In this document: piece after piece, positions 6,169 through 13,177 of the stretch | How the letters are laid out: each line of letters opens with the position of its first letter | How positions within the stretch are numbered: the first letter of the stretch is position 1 | NCBI GenBank assembly: GCA_029850555.1 | Contig: JARCRS010000152.1 | Location: forward strand, 1-45,470 | Origin: an archaeon | GTDB taxonomy: Archaea > Thermoproteota > Nitrososphaeria > Nitrososphaerales > CADDZS01 | Direction of reading: 5' to 3' | Length of the DNA: 45,470 bases | Translations under genes and position numbers: made by a program | Notes under the pieces: generated by a model | What the model was told of the DNA's origin: nothing | The model's database searches: none | The model's input: the letters and a program-made list of their open reading frames with translations, nothing else

Positions 6169-7311
6169 CTACTTTTTGGATTGGGAAGTCCTAGCTCTTT
6201 TGTCTTGGAGTATTTGGAGATAGTTCTCGAATAAACCCTTCAGGTTATTTACATCTCGATATGGAGTGACTTCGATCTGCTCGTTCGCGAAAACCCGTTC
6301 CAAGAATTCTCCCAATCCCTTTGTCTTGTCTCGCCCAAATAACCAGACATTACCTTTCGACAACATCGAATAACAGGCCAGAGCCTCGAAAACTTGCCCG
6401 TACGCAGGTTGTTTTGATGGATCTGATGGAAGAAGAACACACGCCGCATCGCTTTTGCTTATGAGATCCAATGAGGCGGAAAGATCGCGCGTGCTCTCGA
6501 GAAGAGCTGTTGAATTCACGAGAGTCTTGAAACCAAAAGTTGAAGCGGAGTCCAATATGACATATTTTTCTTCATCAGGAGTTTCGGTCGAAAAGGAAAC
6601 GTACATCGTTTTGAAGGGGTGACATACATCAGTATCACAGATTGTTTGTGTGCAAACAGGACAATGATCATCATATTTCTGATCTACGATTGTTGCGAGA
6701 TCCAACTGCAAGAGCTGAGCTATGGTAAGAGTCCAAGCTAAGATCGCAGCTAGCTTCGAGGTAATTTGTTCAAGAGGCGCTCTTTTTCTATTAAGCATCG
6801 CGAGATCTCCTACATCCTTCATCATGGCGACGAGAGAGTTAGTCGGCGTGAGCCTGAGATTTTCTTCTTGGTAAACTTTCGAAATAAACTTCTGCCAGTC
6901 TCGCAATGTCTGAGGCATAGAGAATTCTTGAAGAGATGGCTGGGCCGCTTGCGACCAAGAAGGTCTGGGAGCGTGCTGTCCATATTTCTGCCAGGCGAGC
7001 GAAGATAGATCAATGTCGAGTTTGAATGCTAGAGAACATGTCCACGAGAAAACATCGGCAAGGTTTGGCGCAATTTGTGCCTTGTCTTGAGACTCCATTG
7101 GATTCACAAGTTCTGCGACTTCCTCCACGAGTCTCGAGATCATATATTCGGTAGTATGTTTGTCATGCCGTTTGCCGTAGATTCTGCCGAACCGTGACAG
7201 CCAATCGTCTAGTGAAAGATCATCGAAAGATCTCTCCGTCGCGTGATCTTGAGATTGAGAATCCACTAACTGATTGGGGAAACGCGGACTATTTTCCAAA
7301 CTAAAGAACAT
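6169..7311 (-). CDS. MazG-like duplicated protein with zinc knuckle and deoxyribosyltransferase-like C-terminal domain
   Basis: A 380-residue multidomain protein. Residues about 33-113 resemble a MazG-type all-alpha NTP pyrophosphohydrolase repeat, with the metal motif RLVEEVAELVN (E63, E64, E67) and NLADVFSW (D86). Residues about 134-213 repeat the fold but have lost most acidic residues (VAMMKDVGDLAM). A knuckle with Cys 217, 220, 225 and 230 follows, then an alpha/beta domain (236-365) with KSDAACVLLPSD and GQVFEALACYSM, reminiscent of nucleoside deoxyribosyltransferase or related nucleotide-sensing folds. It lies upstream of pyrE in the same direction. A nucleotide-pool role is inferred; the exact reaction is unknown. 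Confidence 0.7.
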   Translation of the reverse strand: MFFSLENSPRFPNQLVDSQSQDHATERSFDDLSLDDWLSRFGRIYGKRHDKHTTEYMISRLVEEVAELVNPMESQDKAQIAPNLADVFSWTCSLAFKLDIDLSSLAWQKYGQHAPRPSWSQAAQPSLQEFSMPQTLRDWQKFISKVYQEENLRLTPTNSLVAMMKDVGDLAMLNRKRAPLEQITSKLAAILAWTLTIAQLLQLDLATIVDQKYDDHCPVCTQTICDTDVCHPFKTMYVSFSTETPDEEKYVILDSASTFGFKTLVNSTALLESTRDLSASLDLISKSDAACVLLPSDPSKQPAYGQVFEALACYSMLSKGNVWLFGRDKTKGLGEFLERVFANEQIEVTPYRDVNNLKGLFENYLQILQDKRARTSQSKK

Positions 7312-7528: not shown

Positions 7529-9382
7529 TTGAGTTCCAGGGATTTAGATCGAATCGGCCATCAGGCGAGCTCTACATCTCGCACAATGGGCTCTGAGCAT
7601 TATCATAGCGCAATGAAGAAAGAGCATCCTGATTGGAACTTTTGTCCAACTTGCAATGCTTCACTAGCTATCGAAGCTCGGTCCGATGTTCTCGGTTTGT
7701 TACTGACTAATCCTGAGAATAGGTTTGTGATTTCAGCTTCCTTGTCAACTGAAACAGGGACAGGCATCTTGAGCCCTTTTTCACTAAACGGGGACACAAA
7801 GATTCCTGTTTGGGCTGAAGCATCACAATTGGGTTCGCCAGGTCTTTCGAAAGAACGATTGTTTGAAGAGTTGGTCGTCCAACATGTCCTGCCGGCTTTT
7901 CGCAATGGATTCAAGCTTGCGAAGTACTCAGGGCCCGAAGAGGATATTCATCTTTTCTTGCAAGTTTTGATAAAGTACGCGCAAAAGGATCTTTCCGATC
8001 GAGCCCTAAACCTGGACAGAACTTTGTCCGATGAATCCCAAAAAGTCTTTGTCCAGGATGTGGCGGCTTCGATGCCTCTACCTCCTACTGAAACAATGGC
8101 GTCTACTCAAATGTCACAAAGGAAATCCCTGACCACGCATTACTCTCCCGAAGACGATCCGAACCGCGAAGTCTTGCAATCTGATAACCAGGTATCGAGC
8201 GGAGTACTCGGTCTTGATAGCATTCTGGGAGGAGGGTTGCCGAAGAACAAGATCACTTTGATTTCAGGACACTCTGGCAGTGGCAAGACCGTGTTAGCGT
8301 CACAATTCTTGATTGATGGAGCGAAGAAGGGCGAAATCGGGATTTTAGCACTTGTCGGACAGATGCCGAACGATGTTCTCGAAGAGCTCGAACACATTGG
8401 ACTTTCCATCATAAGCCAAATACGTCAACGCAAGATATTGTTGATCGTTTGTGATCAAAGAAAAGTCGTTCAGATTCGAGGCGTAGATATTATCAATGTC
8501 AAAGGCAAATCCGAATTACTTTCCACCATCGAGAAGATTGTGCGGAGAAAAAAAGCTAGCAGAGTTGTCATAGATAGCCTCACCGCTCTAGTAAACACTC
8601 ATAACAAGAACGGTGTGAGATCATTAATAGCAGAGATATTCGAGAGACTGTCTGAACTAAGATGCACAACAGTACTAACGAGCGAATTGCAATCCGGTTC
8701 GAAGTTAGCTTCATACTTCGGGATAGAGGATATGTTTGCATCAGGAGTCATAATGCTTAGTTCGAAAAGTATTGCGGAAAAACACACGCGTTATTTGTAT
8801 GTTCCGAAGATGAAAGGATCTAATCACAGCCTTTCCAAATACGCCTTCGCAATCGAGGACACTGTCGGAATTAAAGTGCTTGATCCACTCAAAGTCTATT
8901 CAGAACGTCTTGAACCAAGACCTGTCTTATCTCAGCCAGGAAATCCAGGTTGGGCCGAGGTCTCGAATTTGCTCAAGATCTTAACCTCCATGAATCCTGG
9001 GCTCCTGCAGTCGCAAGGAGCTTACGACCTGGGTATGGCTAGGATCAATGCAGTGAATGGAGAAGGAGCGAGATCTTATCCCTGGCAAAGTGCTGCATCG
9101 TATCTTTCGAATGCGAAAGGCCAGAGCAAAAAAATCACGCAGATGAAGCCTAGTGCTTCGCCGAATGAACCGAGGCCACTTTCGATAGAAGAGGCAAAAT
9201 TGACGGCAGCAGCAAACGAGAATCCATGGGCGTCGATCATTTCTTCGCGCGAAGTAGACGTGGATAGTTCTGACCAGCCGGTTGCATCAAATTCAGAGCA
9301 AGTCATACCTACCGAGCAAGCTTCCTTGCCCGAAAAGCACGAGCTTGAATCTCCCGATAATGGGAATCCCAGTTCTCAATAA
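7529..9382 (+). CDS. KaiC/GvpD-like RecA-family ATPase with N- and C-terminal extensions
   Basis: A 617-residue protein. The N-terminal part has one CPTC knuckle (about residue 38) and an unrecognised domain up to about 180. The RecA-type core starts at GVLGLDSILGGGLPKNK, with Walker A GHSGSGKT at 247-254 and Walker B RVVIDSLTAL. The loop that in KaiC carries the catalytic Glu pair reads LALVGQMPNDVLEELE, so hydrolysis may be weak or lost. The last 150 residues are Ser/Pro/Glu-rich and probably disordered. It precedes the actin-like and VWA genes on the same strand. The TTG start at 7529 is uncertain; ATG 7589 would remove 20 residues. Confidence 0.8.
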   Translation: MSSRDLDRIGHQASSTSRTMGSEHYHSAMKKEHPDWNFCPTCNASLAIEARSDVLGLLLTNPENRFVISASLSTETGTGILSPFSLNGDTKIPVWAEASQLGSPGLSKERLFEELVVQHVLPAFRNGFKLAKYSGPEEDIHLFLQVLIKYAQKDLSDRALNLDRTLSDESQKVFVQDVAASMPLPPTETMASTQMSQRKSLTTHYSPEDDPNREVLQSDNQVSSGVLGLDSILGGGLPKNKITLISGHSGSGKTVLASQFLIDGAKKGEIGILALVGQMPNDVLEELEHIGLSIISQIRQRKILLIVCDQRKVVQIRGVDIINVKGKSELLSTIEKIVRRKKASRVVIDSLTALVNTHNKNGVRSLIAEIFERLSELRCTTVLTSELQSGSKLASYFGIEDMFASGVIMLSSKSIAEKHTRYLYVPKMKGSNHSLSKYAFAIEDTVGIKVLDPLKVYSERLEPRPVLSQPGNPGWAEVSNLLKILTSMNPGLLQSQGAYDLGMARINAVNGEGARSYPWQSAASYLSNAKGQSKKITQMKPSASPNEPRPLSIEEAKLTAAANENPWASIISSREVDVDSSDQPVASNSEQVIPTEQASLPEKHELESPDNGNPSSQ

Positions 9383-9665
9383 TTTATGAAATGTGTCACA
9401 AATCAAAGGACATCTTTGGTCAAATATTTTATGAGATGCCAGTATTTCTTTTCTACAAAACTTCGAGAGCTAAAAGATGCTGTCCTCTTATATTTTGAAT
9501 AAAACTAGTTAGTAGCTAAGGTTTGGCAAAGAGCAACAGATTGTATACTGCAAGTACGCGTGAATGTCAATTCATTTGTCACTTTATGCGTTTGCAAACC
9601 AGTACCCTGTCCGGAGATGCAACTGTTCTTTCCGCCAAGTTGTAAGATAAGAAAAACAGAGAGAA
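9383..9665 (+). promoter_or_regulatory. Intergenic promoter region before the actin-like gene
   Basis: A 283-base gap. TTATATTTTG at 9488-9497 is a TATA candidate. It is followed by TTAGT-A-GCTAA (9509-9519), one base different from the palindrome in the hsp20 promoter and in a similar position relative to its TATA box. CTTTATGC near 9581 is a second, weaker TATA candidate closer to the gene. A 38-codon frame from ATG 9386 has no ribosome site. I see no RNA gene here. Confidence 0.4.
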
Positions 9666-10958
9666 GTGGAAAAATTGGAAACATCGAAGAGCTATAGAGA
9701 GCTTTTCACTTTTGGAGAAGATTACGGAACTTCAGAATTCAAGTTCGGACCATCTTCCTTGGGAGATGTGCCAGATGCGATCGAATCCAGGGGTTATTTC
9801 CCCGACATTACTGAAGCAACCTATGGAGTGTATGGATTCCAGACACCCCGGCCAATCATAGTTGGACCTGAGGTTTCTGAACATCTCGAATCTAGATCTG
9901 ATCTTACCGAGAGACTAGTACATCCTATGACTTCAGGGCTGATCGAAAGTTCAGATGACAGGGCATGGACAGTTGTGAAAGAGATAACACGGTACGGGCT
10001 AAAGAGATATGCGCCGTCTACAGCTGGCTTTGATGGATTCAACTGTGTGTCTGCCTTGTTTTCTGGCTCTCCAAGGTACATGTACGAAAAAATCTTTGCG
10101 ATCCATGAGGAAATTAACAAAGAAGAAGGGAGAAAACTAGTCAAGAATGTAACAGTAATCCCTCAACCTTTGGCAGTCGCGATTGCCCAAAAGGCAATTA
10201 CCTGCACAGTAATTGAAGCGGGTCACGGAAACACTCAGATCACGCCGATTAGTAAGGCCGTTATCAACTCGTCGTTGCTCACGCTTAATCGGGGCGGAGC
10301 TGATGTTGATGCCCTAGCTGGAGAAATTCTAAGGGATGCTGGTTTTGGCGATCTCGCTAAGGAAAGAAAATTCGTAAAAATATTCAAGGAAACCGTGGGA
10401 CTCATTCCGATGGACCTGAAGAAAGTAATGGAGAATGATCATGAAGAAAAATTCCGATTCGTATTCAAGATTCCGGGAACAAGGATCTCGGTTGATCTTG
10501 GGGGCGCAGCTTGGCAGCGCTTCCTATTGGGCGAGTTTTTCTTCAACCCAGAAAACGAGATATTCCAATCCTATTACAAGAGAGGCTTCCGAAGACCGAC
10601 GGATTCCTATCTTAAGGGAGATGTCGTTGCAGGTACGACTAATCTCATTGAGGCAGTTACCAAATCCATTGAAAGATGTTCGTTCGAAATTCAGGCAAAC
10701 CTATATCACAACATTCTTCTGTCTGGAGGAAATTTTGCTTGGAGGGTACCGCCCGGGCTCGAGGAGTACGCTACCGACGCAGCTACAAAGATCATGACGA
10801 TGCTTGAAGCTTCTGGAGTAAATAATGCCAAGGTGATCACTACGACTAACCCTCAATACAATGTTTGGCAAGGCTTGATAGTGTATGGGCTCTATCTCCC
10901 TGAGAATTACGAATGGAAATGGGAGAGACAGGAAGGCTGGATTCTTGTTACTCAATAG
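9666..10958 (+). CDS. Actin-family protein (crenactin-like)
   Basis: A 430-residue member of the actin/Hsp70/sugar kinase ATPase superfamily, expected to form filaments. The phosphate-1 loop is FTFGEDYGTSEFKFG near residue 17, the phosphate-2 loop EAGHGNTQI at about 183-191 and the adenosine motif LLSGGNFAW at about 350-358; VIPQPLAVAIAQ is the connecting segment. Length and motif spacing match archaeal crenactins better than bacterial MreB or ParM. The GTG at 9666 is the only sensible start, since an in-frame TAA lies 15 bases upstream. The VWA gene begins 35 bases after its stop, so the two are likely one transcript. Whether it serves shape, segregation or trafficking is unknown. Confidence 0.86.
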   Translation: MEKLETSKSYRELFTFGEDYGTSEFKFGPSSLGDVPDAIESRGYFPDITEATYGVYGFQTPRPIIVGPEVSEHLESRSDLTERLVHPMTSGLIESSDDRAWTVVKEITRYGLKRYAPSTAGFDGFNCVSALFSGSPRYMYEKIFAIHEEINKEEGRKLVKNVTVIPQPLAVAIAQKAITCTVIEAGHGNTQITPISKAVINSSLLTLNRGGADVDALAGEILRDAGFGDLAKERKFVKIFKETVGLIPMDLKKVMENDHEEKFRFVFKIPGTRISVDLGGAAWQRFLLGEFFFNPENEIFQSYYKRGFRRPTDSYLKGDVVAGTTNLIEAVTKSIERCSFEIQANLYHNILLSGGNFAWRVPPGLEEYATDAATKIMTMLEASGVNNAKVITTTNPQYNVWQGLIVYGLYLPENYEWKWERQEGWILVTQ

Positions 10959-10993
10959 GAGATTTCACTTTTTGAAGGAGTGGAGATTTGTAA

Positions 10994-12106
10994 TTGCGAA
11001 GCGAAATTGAACCTATAACGAGAAGCGAAGCGTCAGCTGGTTCTTCTTCATCCCTTATTGAAGGCAGGTATCCGGCCCGTGTGCAGACCAAAGGAATCGA
11101 TTCCATCTTTGTTCTGGATTGTTCGAGAAGCATGGGTGACAAAATGGATTCGACCTCGAAGAGTACAAAACTTGACCTTTGCAAAACTGCGCTGGTGTCG
11201 GCATTCTCTAGAGCTACGGAGAACAATAGTCCAGACCGTGTTGGGCTTCTTGCGGTCAATACAAACATTCTCGCAAAGCCACTGATAAGTGAAATCATGA
11301 AATTTGGTGAGATATCAAGAAGAGATAGCGGCTCAAAGTCTATCCCAATCGAAGAAATCCTTGCAATCAAGTGCCAGGGAGGAACGGCCCTCTATGCCGC
11401 AATCTCGAAAGCAACAAAGATTCTAGTTTCAAATAAGAGCTCGCGAAGTAGCTCCCAACAGATAATCATCATAACAGATTCGAAAAACAACACAGCAGAA
11501 CAACCAATGAAGGTACTTGCTGAAGCTGCAAAAAATCGAATCAAGATTCATGTTATCGATCTAGGCAATAAGAAGGTTCAGGACAGCCTAAAGATGGTAT
11601 GCGATGCGACGGGTGGACAATTCGCTTTCATCACAAATGCTAACGATCTGCAATCGAATCTGTTTGCGGCATTTTCTGTCCCAGTAGAAAACCAGGGAAA
11701 AGATGGAGCAAGTCTTACGAAAGTATTGTTTCCAGCAATTTTCGGAGAGCAGGCCAGACCGCCTGTAACCCCCAAGAGAAGAAGGGCGGAGAACGTCGAT
11801 GAAATTCGGTTGAGCGTAGATCAAATAAAAACTGAGATCGAAACGATGACAGAATCGTTGAGGGCCGGTCGGATGAATCAAATGCAATTTACCGAGAAAT
11901 ACTCCGTACTCCAGTTCGATCTGCAAGAACTTCGCCAGTCAATTCGTGAACACCGATCAAAGCTGAACCGAGAGATGTCAGAGTACGCTCTTGCTCAGGA
12001 TAAAATACCTGGCGACGCATCGTTGAACAGGGAAACCAATGAGCGCTTGTTAGAGCTTGACAAACAGATTGAGATATTAAAAAAATCAGCGGCCTTTGTA
12101 TCCTAA
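10994..12106 (+). CDS. von Willebrand factor A domain protein with coiled-coil C-terminus
   Basis: A 370-residue protein with no signal peptide, so it is probably cytosolic. The VWA fold (about 35-230) keeps a full metal-ion-dependent adhesion site: DxSxS as D42-C-S44-R-S46 (LDCSRSMGD), Thr131 in GGTALYAA and Asp162 in IIIITDSKNN. The region after 250 is rich in Glu, Arg and Gln and reads as coiled coil to the end. It starts at TTG 10994 after AAGGAG/GGAG (10975-10985), 35 bases behind the actin-like gene. A metal-dependent adaptor for the actin or the KaiC-like ATPase is inferred; no partner is proven. Confidence 0.82.
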   Translation: MRSEIEPITRSEASAGSSSSLIEGRYPARVQTKGIDSIFVLDCSRSMGDKMDSTSKSTKLDLCKTALVSAFSRATENNSPDRVGLLAVNTNILAKPLISEIMKFGEISRRDSGSKSIPIEEILAIKCQGGTALYAAISKATKILVSNKSSRSSSQQIIIITDSKNNTAEQPMKVLAEAAKNRIKIHVIDLGNKKVQDSLKMVCDATGGQFAFITNANDLQSNLFAAFSVPVENQGKDGASLTKVLFPAIFGEQARPPVTPKRRRAENVDEIRLSVDQIKTEIETMTESLRAGRMNQMQFTEKYSVLQFDLQELRQSIREHRSKLNREMSEYALAQDKIPGDASLNRETNERLLELDKQIEILKKSAAFVS

Positions 12107-12123
12107 ATTATGAGAAAAATCGG

Positions 12124-12150
12124 TTGCTAGAACATTAGCAATCCTTTTTT
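12124..12150 (+). terminator. Hairpin and T-run after the actin/VWA genes
   Basis: TTGCTA (12124-12129) pairs with TAGCAA (12136-12141) across a six-base loop, followed by TCC and six T (12145-12150). It lies 17 bases after the VWA stop and likely ends the actin-VWA transcript. Confidence 0.6.
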
Positions 12151-12175
12151 CCAGATCCACGAAACTTTTAGATTC

Positions 12176-13177
12176 GTGGAGAAAGAAAGAAAGCTCGTTC
12201 TGTTTACTGTCGATATCGCTGATCAACTAATTCGCGATTTGAGTAAGGAATTTCCGCAATACGAGTTTAGAAGGACTAATTCAAAAGATGAGGCGCTCTC
12301 GATTGTTAGTAAAGCCGAGATCCTTGTTACACTAAGCCCAAGCTCCGAAATAATCACTTCAGCGAAAAATTGCAAATGGCTCCAGGTTCTCACGGCTGGA
12401 GTGGAAGACTATCTTGCGATAGACGCTGTGAAGAGTAACCAAAATCTGATTCTCACTAATGCCTCGGGTATCCATCGGATTCAAATCTCTGAGCATGTCT
12501 TTGCCATTATTCTTGCTCTGACTCGCGGCATCAAAGCGGCGGTACTGAATCAGCAAAAGAAGATTTGGGCTGGATTGGAGCGCATGACCAAGCCACCACC
12601 AATGATGGAGCTTTACGGAAAGACCTTGTTGCTTGTCGGCCTCGGAAGTATTGGTCTCGCGATCGCGAAGAAAGGAAAGGCTTTCGGAATGAAACCCATT
12701 GGACTAAAACATGATCTCTCGAAAAGGCCCAAAGATCCGGAATATTCGAGTTACGTAGATGCGATTCATGGAGCAGAGGATCTTTCAAATGTCGTTTCTA
12801 CAGCTGATTTCATCGTTAACAGTTTGCCTTTGACAAAGGAAACCGAAGCCGTCTTTGATTCCAAGATTTTTTCAAGTACGAAAAATGGCGCGATTTTCAT
12901 AAACGTGGGTAGAGGAAAAACCGTCGTCGAACTCGATCTCGTTCAGGCTTTAAAATCAGGAAGGCTCGCTGGAGCTGGGCTTGACGTATTCGAAATAGAG
13001 CCTCTTTCTAATGATTCTGCTTTATGGGAAATGGAAAATGTGATTGTCTCACCACATATTTCAGGTTGGAGCGCAGAGTATTTCGAACGCGGACTTGACA
13101 TATTCAGACAGAATCTGAGACGGTACTCTGCTGGTGAACATCTAATTAATCTAGTCGACAAAAAAGCGGGGTACTAA
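12176..13177 (+). CDS. D-2-hydroxyacid dehydrogenase (NAD(P)-dependent)
   Basis: Interconverts a 2-keto acid and a D-2-hydroxy acid, or a relative such as glyoxylate. The 333-residue protein has the NAD-binding motif LLVGLGSIGLAIAK in the middle. The catalytic triad of the family is present: Arg in FINVGRGKTVVE, Glu in DVFEIEPLS and His in VSPHISGWS. It starts at GTG 12176, which follows the terminator of the VWA gene closely, so it has its own transcription unit. The 3' end overlaps the convergent DUF35 gene by four bases. Substrate cannot be told from the sequence. Confidence 0.92.
   Translation: MEKERKLVLFTVDIADQLIRDLSKEFPQYEFRRTNSKDEALSIVSKAEILVTLSPSSEIITSAKNCKWLQVLTAGVEDYLAIDAVKSNQNLILTNASGIHRIQISEHVFAIILALTRGIKAAVLNQQKKIWAGLERMTKPPPMMELYGKTLLLVGLGSIGLAIAKKGKAFGMKPIGLKHDLSKRPKDPEYSSYVDAIHGAEDLSNVVSTADFIVNSLPLTKETEAVFDSKIFSSTKNGAIFINVGRGKTVVELDLVQALKSGRLAGAGLDVFEIEPLSNDSALWEMENVIVSPHISGWSAEYFERGLDIFRQNLRRYSAGEHLINLVDKKAGY

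Follow-up and report, generated by a model that had tools for sequence, protein, structure and literature searches.

A probable variant of the archaeal crenactin cluster in which a KaiC-like ATPase bears an arcadin-2-type tail

In a window of 45,470 nucleotides, which makes up the entire contig C152 of a draft archaeal genome (G000; 2.78 Mb, 88% complete), we found three genes with intact open frames, all on the plus strand between positions 7529 and 12106, that encode a KaiC-like ATPase, a crenactin, and a VWA-domain protein. Because the ATPase bears the peptide that dissolves crenactin filaments in other archaea, control of the filament seems to have moved to a nucleotide-binding switch protein. 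The locus is probably a variant of the arcade cluster, with the KaiC ATPase in place of arcadin-2 as the filament regulator and the VWA protein as a partner. An initial annotation had proposed a candidate new cytoskeletal system here. The idea of a regulated filament system survives, with the neighbors kept in a relative, its loss as a block, and VWA proteins of this kind in three families; its entire novelty does not, the cluster being a crenactin/arcade variant.

Gene layout

The genome belongs to a family (f1) of nine genomes in three genera. The three cooriented frames were found where the initial annotation had placed them (Table 1), and the distance of 35 bp that it gave between the actin and VWA genes is correct. 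The KaiC-like and actin genes are 283 bp apart and, given this spacing, may be transcribed separately. A stem with a T-rich tail does stand right behind the VWA gene, at 12122 to 12143, and a joint actin-VWA terminator, as had been proposed, is plausible; however, stem-and-T-tail sites occur in this region at chance frequency (4 found versus 4.5 expected).

Table 1. Features of the cluster and its borders (positions in the window)
Feature	Position	Strand	Evidence
MazG-like gene, left border of the present/absent block	6169..7311	-	Comparison with relatives
KaiC-like ATPase with arcadin-2-type tail, 617 aa	7529..9382	+	PF06745, residues 222-453, E = 4e-51; G247 orthologue, 43% identity
N-terminal domain of the KaiC-like protein, residues 23-160	7595..8008	+	62% identity to orthologue
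Single KaiC/RecA domain, residues 218-455	8180..8893	+	Walker A GHSGSGKT, Walker B VVIDS, G-Q replacing catalytic E-E
Arcadin-2-type tail, putatively crenactin binding, residues 562-576 (ANENPWASIISSREV)	9212..9256	+	Motif scan, profile, profile-profile comparison, shuffles
Crenactin, 430 aa	9666..10958	+	NCBIfam crenactin, 497 bits; PDB 4cj7, E = 1e-91; tree
VWA-domain protein, intact MIDAS, C-terminal helical tail, 370 aa	10994..12106	+	PF00092, E = 2e-12; family adjoins crenactin in three archaeal families
Possible terminator behind the actin-VWA pair, 9-pair stem and T tail	12122..12153	+	Stem search
2-Hydroxyacid dehydrogenase, right border of the present/absent block	12176..13177	+	Comparison with relatives

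The actin is a crenactin

The actin, previously called crenactin-like, matches the NCBIfam crenactin model from end to end (model positions 1 to 422) and the Pfam actin family (PF00022; E = 6e-11), and its nearest solved structure is the crenactin of Pyrobaculum calidifontis (4cj7). The curated cut-off of the model, 630 bits, is reached neither by this actin nor by most crenactins that we found across the phylum. The motif PQPLAVAIA is conserved in the alignment, and the catalytic glutamine (Q164 of P. calidifontis crenactin; PMC5173319) is thus kept. In a tree of 58 crenactins, the window copy pairs with that of G247, a genome of another genus (support, 1.0), and the two are nested in a clade that also holds families f5 and f27 (support, 0.985 to 1.0).

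The crenactin genes of f5 carry inteins (L098, 7208 to 10108; L099, 7391 to 10258; L100, 3410 to 4795), with intein-splicing and LAGLIDADG domains in the first, an intein-splicing match in the last, and in L099 an insert similar in size to the other f5 inteins and at about the same position. In many lineages outside the clade of the window, a charged gene of about 75 to 150 codons, ending like EREFIEVMDRIAQ, stands just upstream of crenactin (L066, L069, L073, L075, L078, L080, L081, and L086) and may encode another undescribed crenactin partner.

Domains of the KaiC-like protein

The KaiC-like protein has one KaiC domain, not two (CI-CII) as in the KaiC clock protein. Its Walker A and Walker B motifs are kept, which makes ATP binding likely. 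The replacement of FEE by LALVGQMPND had been read correctly for the window protein, in which the FEE of KaiC has become VGQ. With both catalytic glutamates lost, the ATPase switch may be dead in this protein; in the G247 orthologue the site reads TDE, so the loss of the glutamate pair is not a trait of the family. The further argument that the lost pair points to nucleotide sensing and not to work output is therefore weak, since the orthologue retains D-E.

The N-terminal domain is predicted to have an alpha/beta fold and includes a short CxxC segment. It matched nothing in Pfam, and its AlphaFold model (mean pLDDT, 75) recovered no match at E < 0.001 in PDB or BFVD with Foldseek. A class-wide search recovered the domain in G000 and G247 only, besides a 27-residue zinc-ribbon-like match. 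As a separate observation, a 66-codon frame at L142 (1390 to 1590) contains HPSWNFCPFCGAKL, which is similar to the beginning of the KaiC-like protein (HPDWNFCPTCNASL), and the two possibly have a zinc-ribbon piece in common. The N-terminal domain was considered as an arcadin-2 core but is unrecognizable as such (hhalign probability, 5.5%), and a reading of the protein as part of a defense system was dropped, the only match being a weak one of the ATPase domain to mad8. AlphaFold gave a poor model of the full-length protein from two sequences (mean pLDDT, 43).

An arcadin-2-type tail on the KaiC-like protein

At nearly all of the Thermoproteota crenactin loci examined, a gene neighboring crenactin encodes a protein end resembling LPSFxKDNPWLEILxRRG. 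At the P. calidifontis locus (L045, recognized by its crenactin sequence), this is the end of a 203-aa arcadin-2, whose last 17 residues are RGGIGENEWVKILRSKR. These residues (187 to 203) have been crystallized in the hydrophobic groove of Pyrobaculum crenactin; the peptide by itself depolymerizes crenactin filaments, the full-length protein binds crenactin with a Kd of 31 nM, a tryptophan is thought to be important, and the tail is laid out on a variable linker (PMC5173319). The G247 orthologue of the KaiC-like protein has VKDNPWTKIISERNE near its end, corresponding to the segment given for the window protein in Table 1. The tail is usually the end of the protein, whereas 43 more residues lie behind it in the window protein.

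When 227,612 aa from crenactin loci were scanned for the motif, matches came exclusively from crenactin-adjacent genes (38/38), those of the window and of L002 falling in the KaiC-like gene. Shuffled sequences reached the loose motif in 1.5 per 1,000 cases and the strict motif in 2 per 100,000. As the pattern was composed after the tail had been noticed, profile searches and profile-profile comparisons are the fairer tests. A profile of 54 other tails, with the two KaiC proteins left out, ranked both of them first in six-frame translations (E = 9e-4 for the window protein and 4e-3 for the other; next match, 0.66). In hhalign comparisons of the full-length KaiC-like protein, only the tail aligned with arcadin-2 profiles (E = 3e-5), and again the tail alone aligned with the membrane proteins described below (E = 2e-4). 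The two orthologues are 62% identical in the N-terminal domain, 45% in the KaiC domain, and 27% in the linker; the linker by which each carries its tail is poorly conserved. Judged by these alignments, the tail near the C terminus of the KaiC-like protein is that of arcadin-2; it is known in this setting from two intact genomes and one relic, and it would be expected to bind crenactin.

At the DNA level, the motif has two sites in the window's own genome; the second (C85) was rejected because no ORF found there has it in frame. A phmmer search of the PDB with the tail from L003 gave no match; the 17-residue crystal peptide falls under the 20-residue limit of that library.

The initial annotation had stated that no arcadins are present. 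This holds in that no arcadin-4 (NF053563) scored over the cut-off in the genome, which gave only weak SMC/Rad50-type matches, and that the arcadin-2 core model (NF053561) found no match there, a model that covers near relatives only and is equally silent on controls; neither arcadin-1 nor arcadin-3 genes were recognized at the locus. It fails for the arcadin-2 tail, which is there on the KaiC-like protein.

Carriers of the tail in other lineages

The proteins that bear the tail in families f27 and f5 and in genus g3 of f1 are predicted to have two to four membrane segments. Most other lineages have the tail on soluble arcadin-2-type proteins, and a KaiC ATPase carries it in the lineage of the window only. 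Since the other members of the clade that holds the window crenactin mostly use membrane-borne tails, it is likelier that the KaiC-borne tail replaced one of these than the reverse. This distribution suggests that archaeal actin is controlled by a short portable tail mounted on three bodies, namely, a soluble core, membrane proteins, and a KaiC ATPase, which recalls the small actin-binding motifs common to eukaryotic regulators. Separately, we found no neighboring tail gene at the crenactin loci L058 (G443), L061 (G467), L082 (G484), and L004; at L061, the gene upstream of crenactin instead encodes a coiled-coil protein that begins with a zinc ribbon.

The membrane-borne tails of the sister lineages bear on an alternative in which the KaiC-like tail brings crenactin filaments elsewhere, as an anchor or scaffold, instead of dissolving them, and an oligomer with many tails would indeed cluster or anchor actin. 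We consider this unlikely: the KaiC-like protein has no predicted membrane segment, and the sole tail that has been tested, that of Pyrobaculum arcadin-2, acts on filaments by depolymerizing them unaided (PMC5173319).

Conservation and loss of the block

In G247, the KaiC-like, crenactin, and VWA genes stand in the same order and at the same site, between MazG and a thiolase gene. Within the genus of the window, G727 retains a broken relic of the cluster at this site (L088, contig C46, 9802 to 11142), in which the KaiC start region has an in-frame stop, the KaiC domain is deleted, the tail is frameshifted, the crenactin is truncated at both ends, and the VWA gene is gone; it is a snapshot of an actin system under loss. 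In three further congeners (G352, G726, and G388), the block is absent with the flanking genes still in place: MazG and the dehydrogenase are separated by 209 bp in G352 and by 166 bp in G726, with nothing between them, and in G388 MazG is followed directly by the next conserved genes. These empty sites lie inside single contigs and so are not assembly gaps. The neighbor relationship on which the earlier proposal depended is thus borne out, as the homologues are adjacent in a second genus and three congeners lack the whole block. Between G000 and G247, crenactin is 80% identical, the KaiC-like protein 43%, and the VWA protein 42%, and pN is well below pS in all three genes, the synonymous sites being saturated (for the KaiC-like gene, 0.41 versus 0.81).

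These comparisons weigh on two other readings. In the first, the KaiC-like protein is an unrelated signaling ATPase that lies beside crenactin by chance, its tail match is likewise fortuitous, and the unit consists of crenactin and VWA only. The spacing between the KaiC-like and actin genes, the many KaiC paralogues of archaeal genomes, and the faster divergence of KaiC than of actin are all in its favor. We regard it as improbable, given that the tail is kept in both orthologues despite so divergent a linker, that shuffles so rarely reach the motif, that the scan had no matches outside crenactin-adjacent genes, and that the KaiC-like gene is broken or lost along with actin and VWA. There is also little likelihood that the cluster is a decaying remnant, an intact copy of a system under loss in the genus and no longer functional as an ATPase-regulated one, as the relic, the empty sites in three congeners, and the glutamate pair lost in the window protein and not in G247 might suggest, since the three frames are free of stops and nonsynonymous change lies well under synonymous change in each.

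A probable VWA partner

The metal site of the VWA protein is intact, as had been reported from the sequence: the MIDAS elements DxSxS, T, and D appear as DCSRS, GGT, and TDS. VWA genes with the helical tail occur near crenactin at 13 loci in f1, f5, and f27, always on the same strand and within about 0.5 to 5.5 kb of it. Within f1, where some genomes are incomplete, the family profile recovered only the proteins of G000 and G247; the four crenactin-less genomes, the relic genome, and the two g3 genomes whose crenactin goes with a membrane-borne tail yielded none. The best reading is that the VWA protein is an older, long-standing partner in this crenactin clade. At L064/L119 (G483, contig C70), two related VWA genes flank the crenactin locus, one upstream and the other downstream of a membrane protein that bears the crenactin tail.

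A proposed mechanism

For the variant arcade cluster that we favor, we envisage the following. Crenactin would polymerize into actin-like filaments, as is established for the Pyrobaculum homologue. The conserved C-terminal helix of the KaiC-like protein, on its variable and probably flexible linker, would dock in the hydrophobic groove of crenactin, where it would occupy the place of the D-loop of the next subunit and compete with it; a tail in that place would result in monomer sequestration or filament capping. Known KaiC-type proteins form hexamers, and a hexamer of this protein could present several tails, perhaps according to its nucleotide state. As the tail is mounted on a KaiC/RecA body with nucleotide motifs and hexamer-forming relatives, its display, and with it filament turnover, is expected to be nucleotide or oligomer dependent. 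The VWA protein is probably a metal-dependent adaptor that would link the system to a partner via its metal site. The fuller proposition, in which an actin cytoskeleton is under the direct control of a KaiC-family switch, the portable tail having moved onto a KaiC ATPase, turnover following the nucleotide or oligomer state, and VWA serving as the third part, is a possibility that we place somewhat short of probable. The tryptophan of the tail offers a one-residue test. New candidate parts of an actin system (the KaiC-like protein, membrane-borne tails, and a VWA partner) are hereby placed in relatives of the ammonia oxidizers.

Comparison with known systems

Crenactin, the arcadins, and the arcadin-2 tails with their conservation are already known. 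Within the open-access literature searched, crenactin and KaiC are never mentioned together, and crenactin and von Willebrand co-occur only in an unrelated vesicle review; this literature seems to contain no description of the KaiC-borne tail, of membrane-borne tails, or of the VWA partner.

The arcade cluster of Thermoproteales, which in P. calidifontis comprises crenactin and arcadins 1 to 4, has in common with the window a crenactin, an adjacent gene with a groove-type tail, and a variable linker. The window differs in having no recognizable arcadin-2 core, no arcadin-4 over the cut-off, and, at the locus itself, no arcadin-1 gene; its tail is on a KaiC ATPase, and a VWA gene is added. Relative to arcadin-2 (NF053561) itself, the likeness lies in the tail (ENPWASIISSR in the window, ENEWVKILRSK in arcadin-2) and in adjacency to crenactin, whereas the remainder of the KaiC-like protein is unrelated, only the tail aligning in profile comparison, and its gene lies upstream of crenactin, where arcadin-2 is usually downstream. 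With the KaiC family ATPases, both circadian and archaeal single-domain, the window protein shares the KaiC/RecA domain with Walker A and B; it differs from them in combining one such domain with an unrelated N-terminal domain and a crenactin-type tail and in the replaced glutamate pair. Finally, the VWA protein resembles others with a MIDAS in its fold and intact metal site and is set apart from them by the C-terminal helical tail, which also occurs in the VWA proteins linked to crenactin in f5 and f27.
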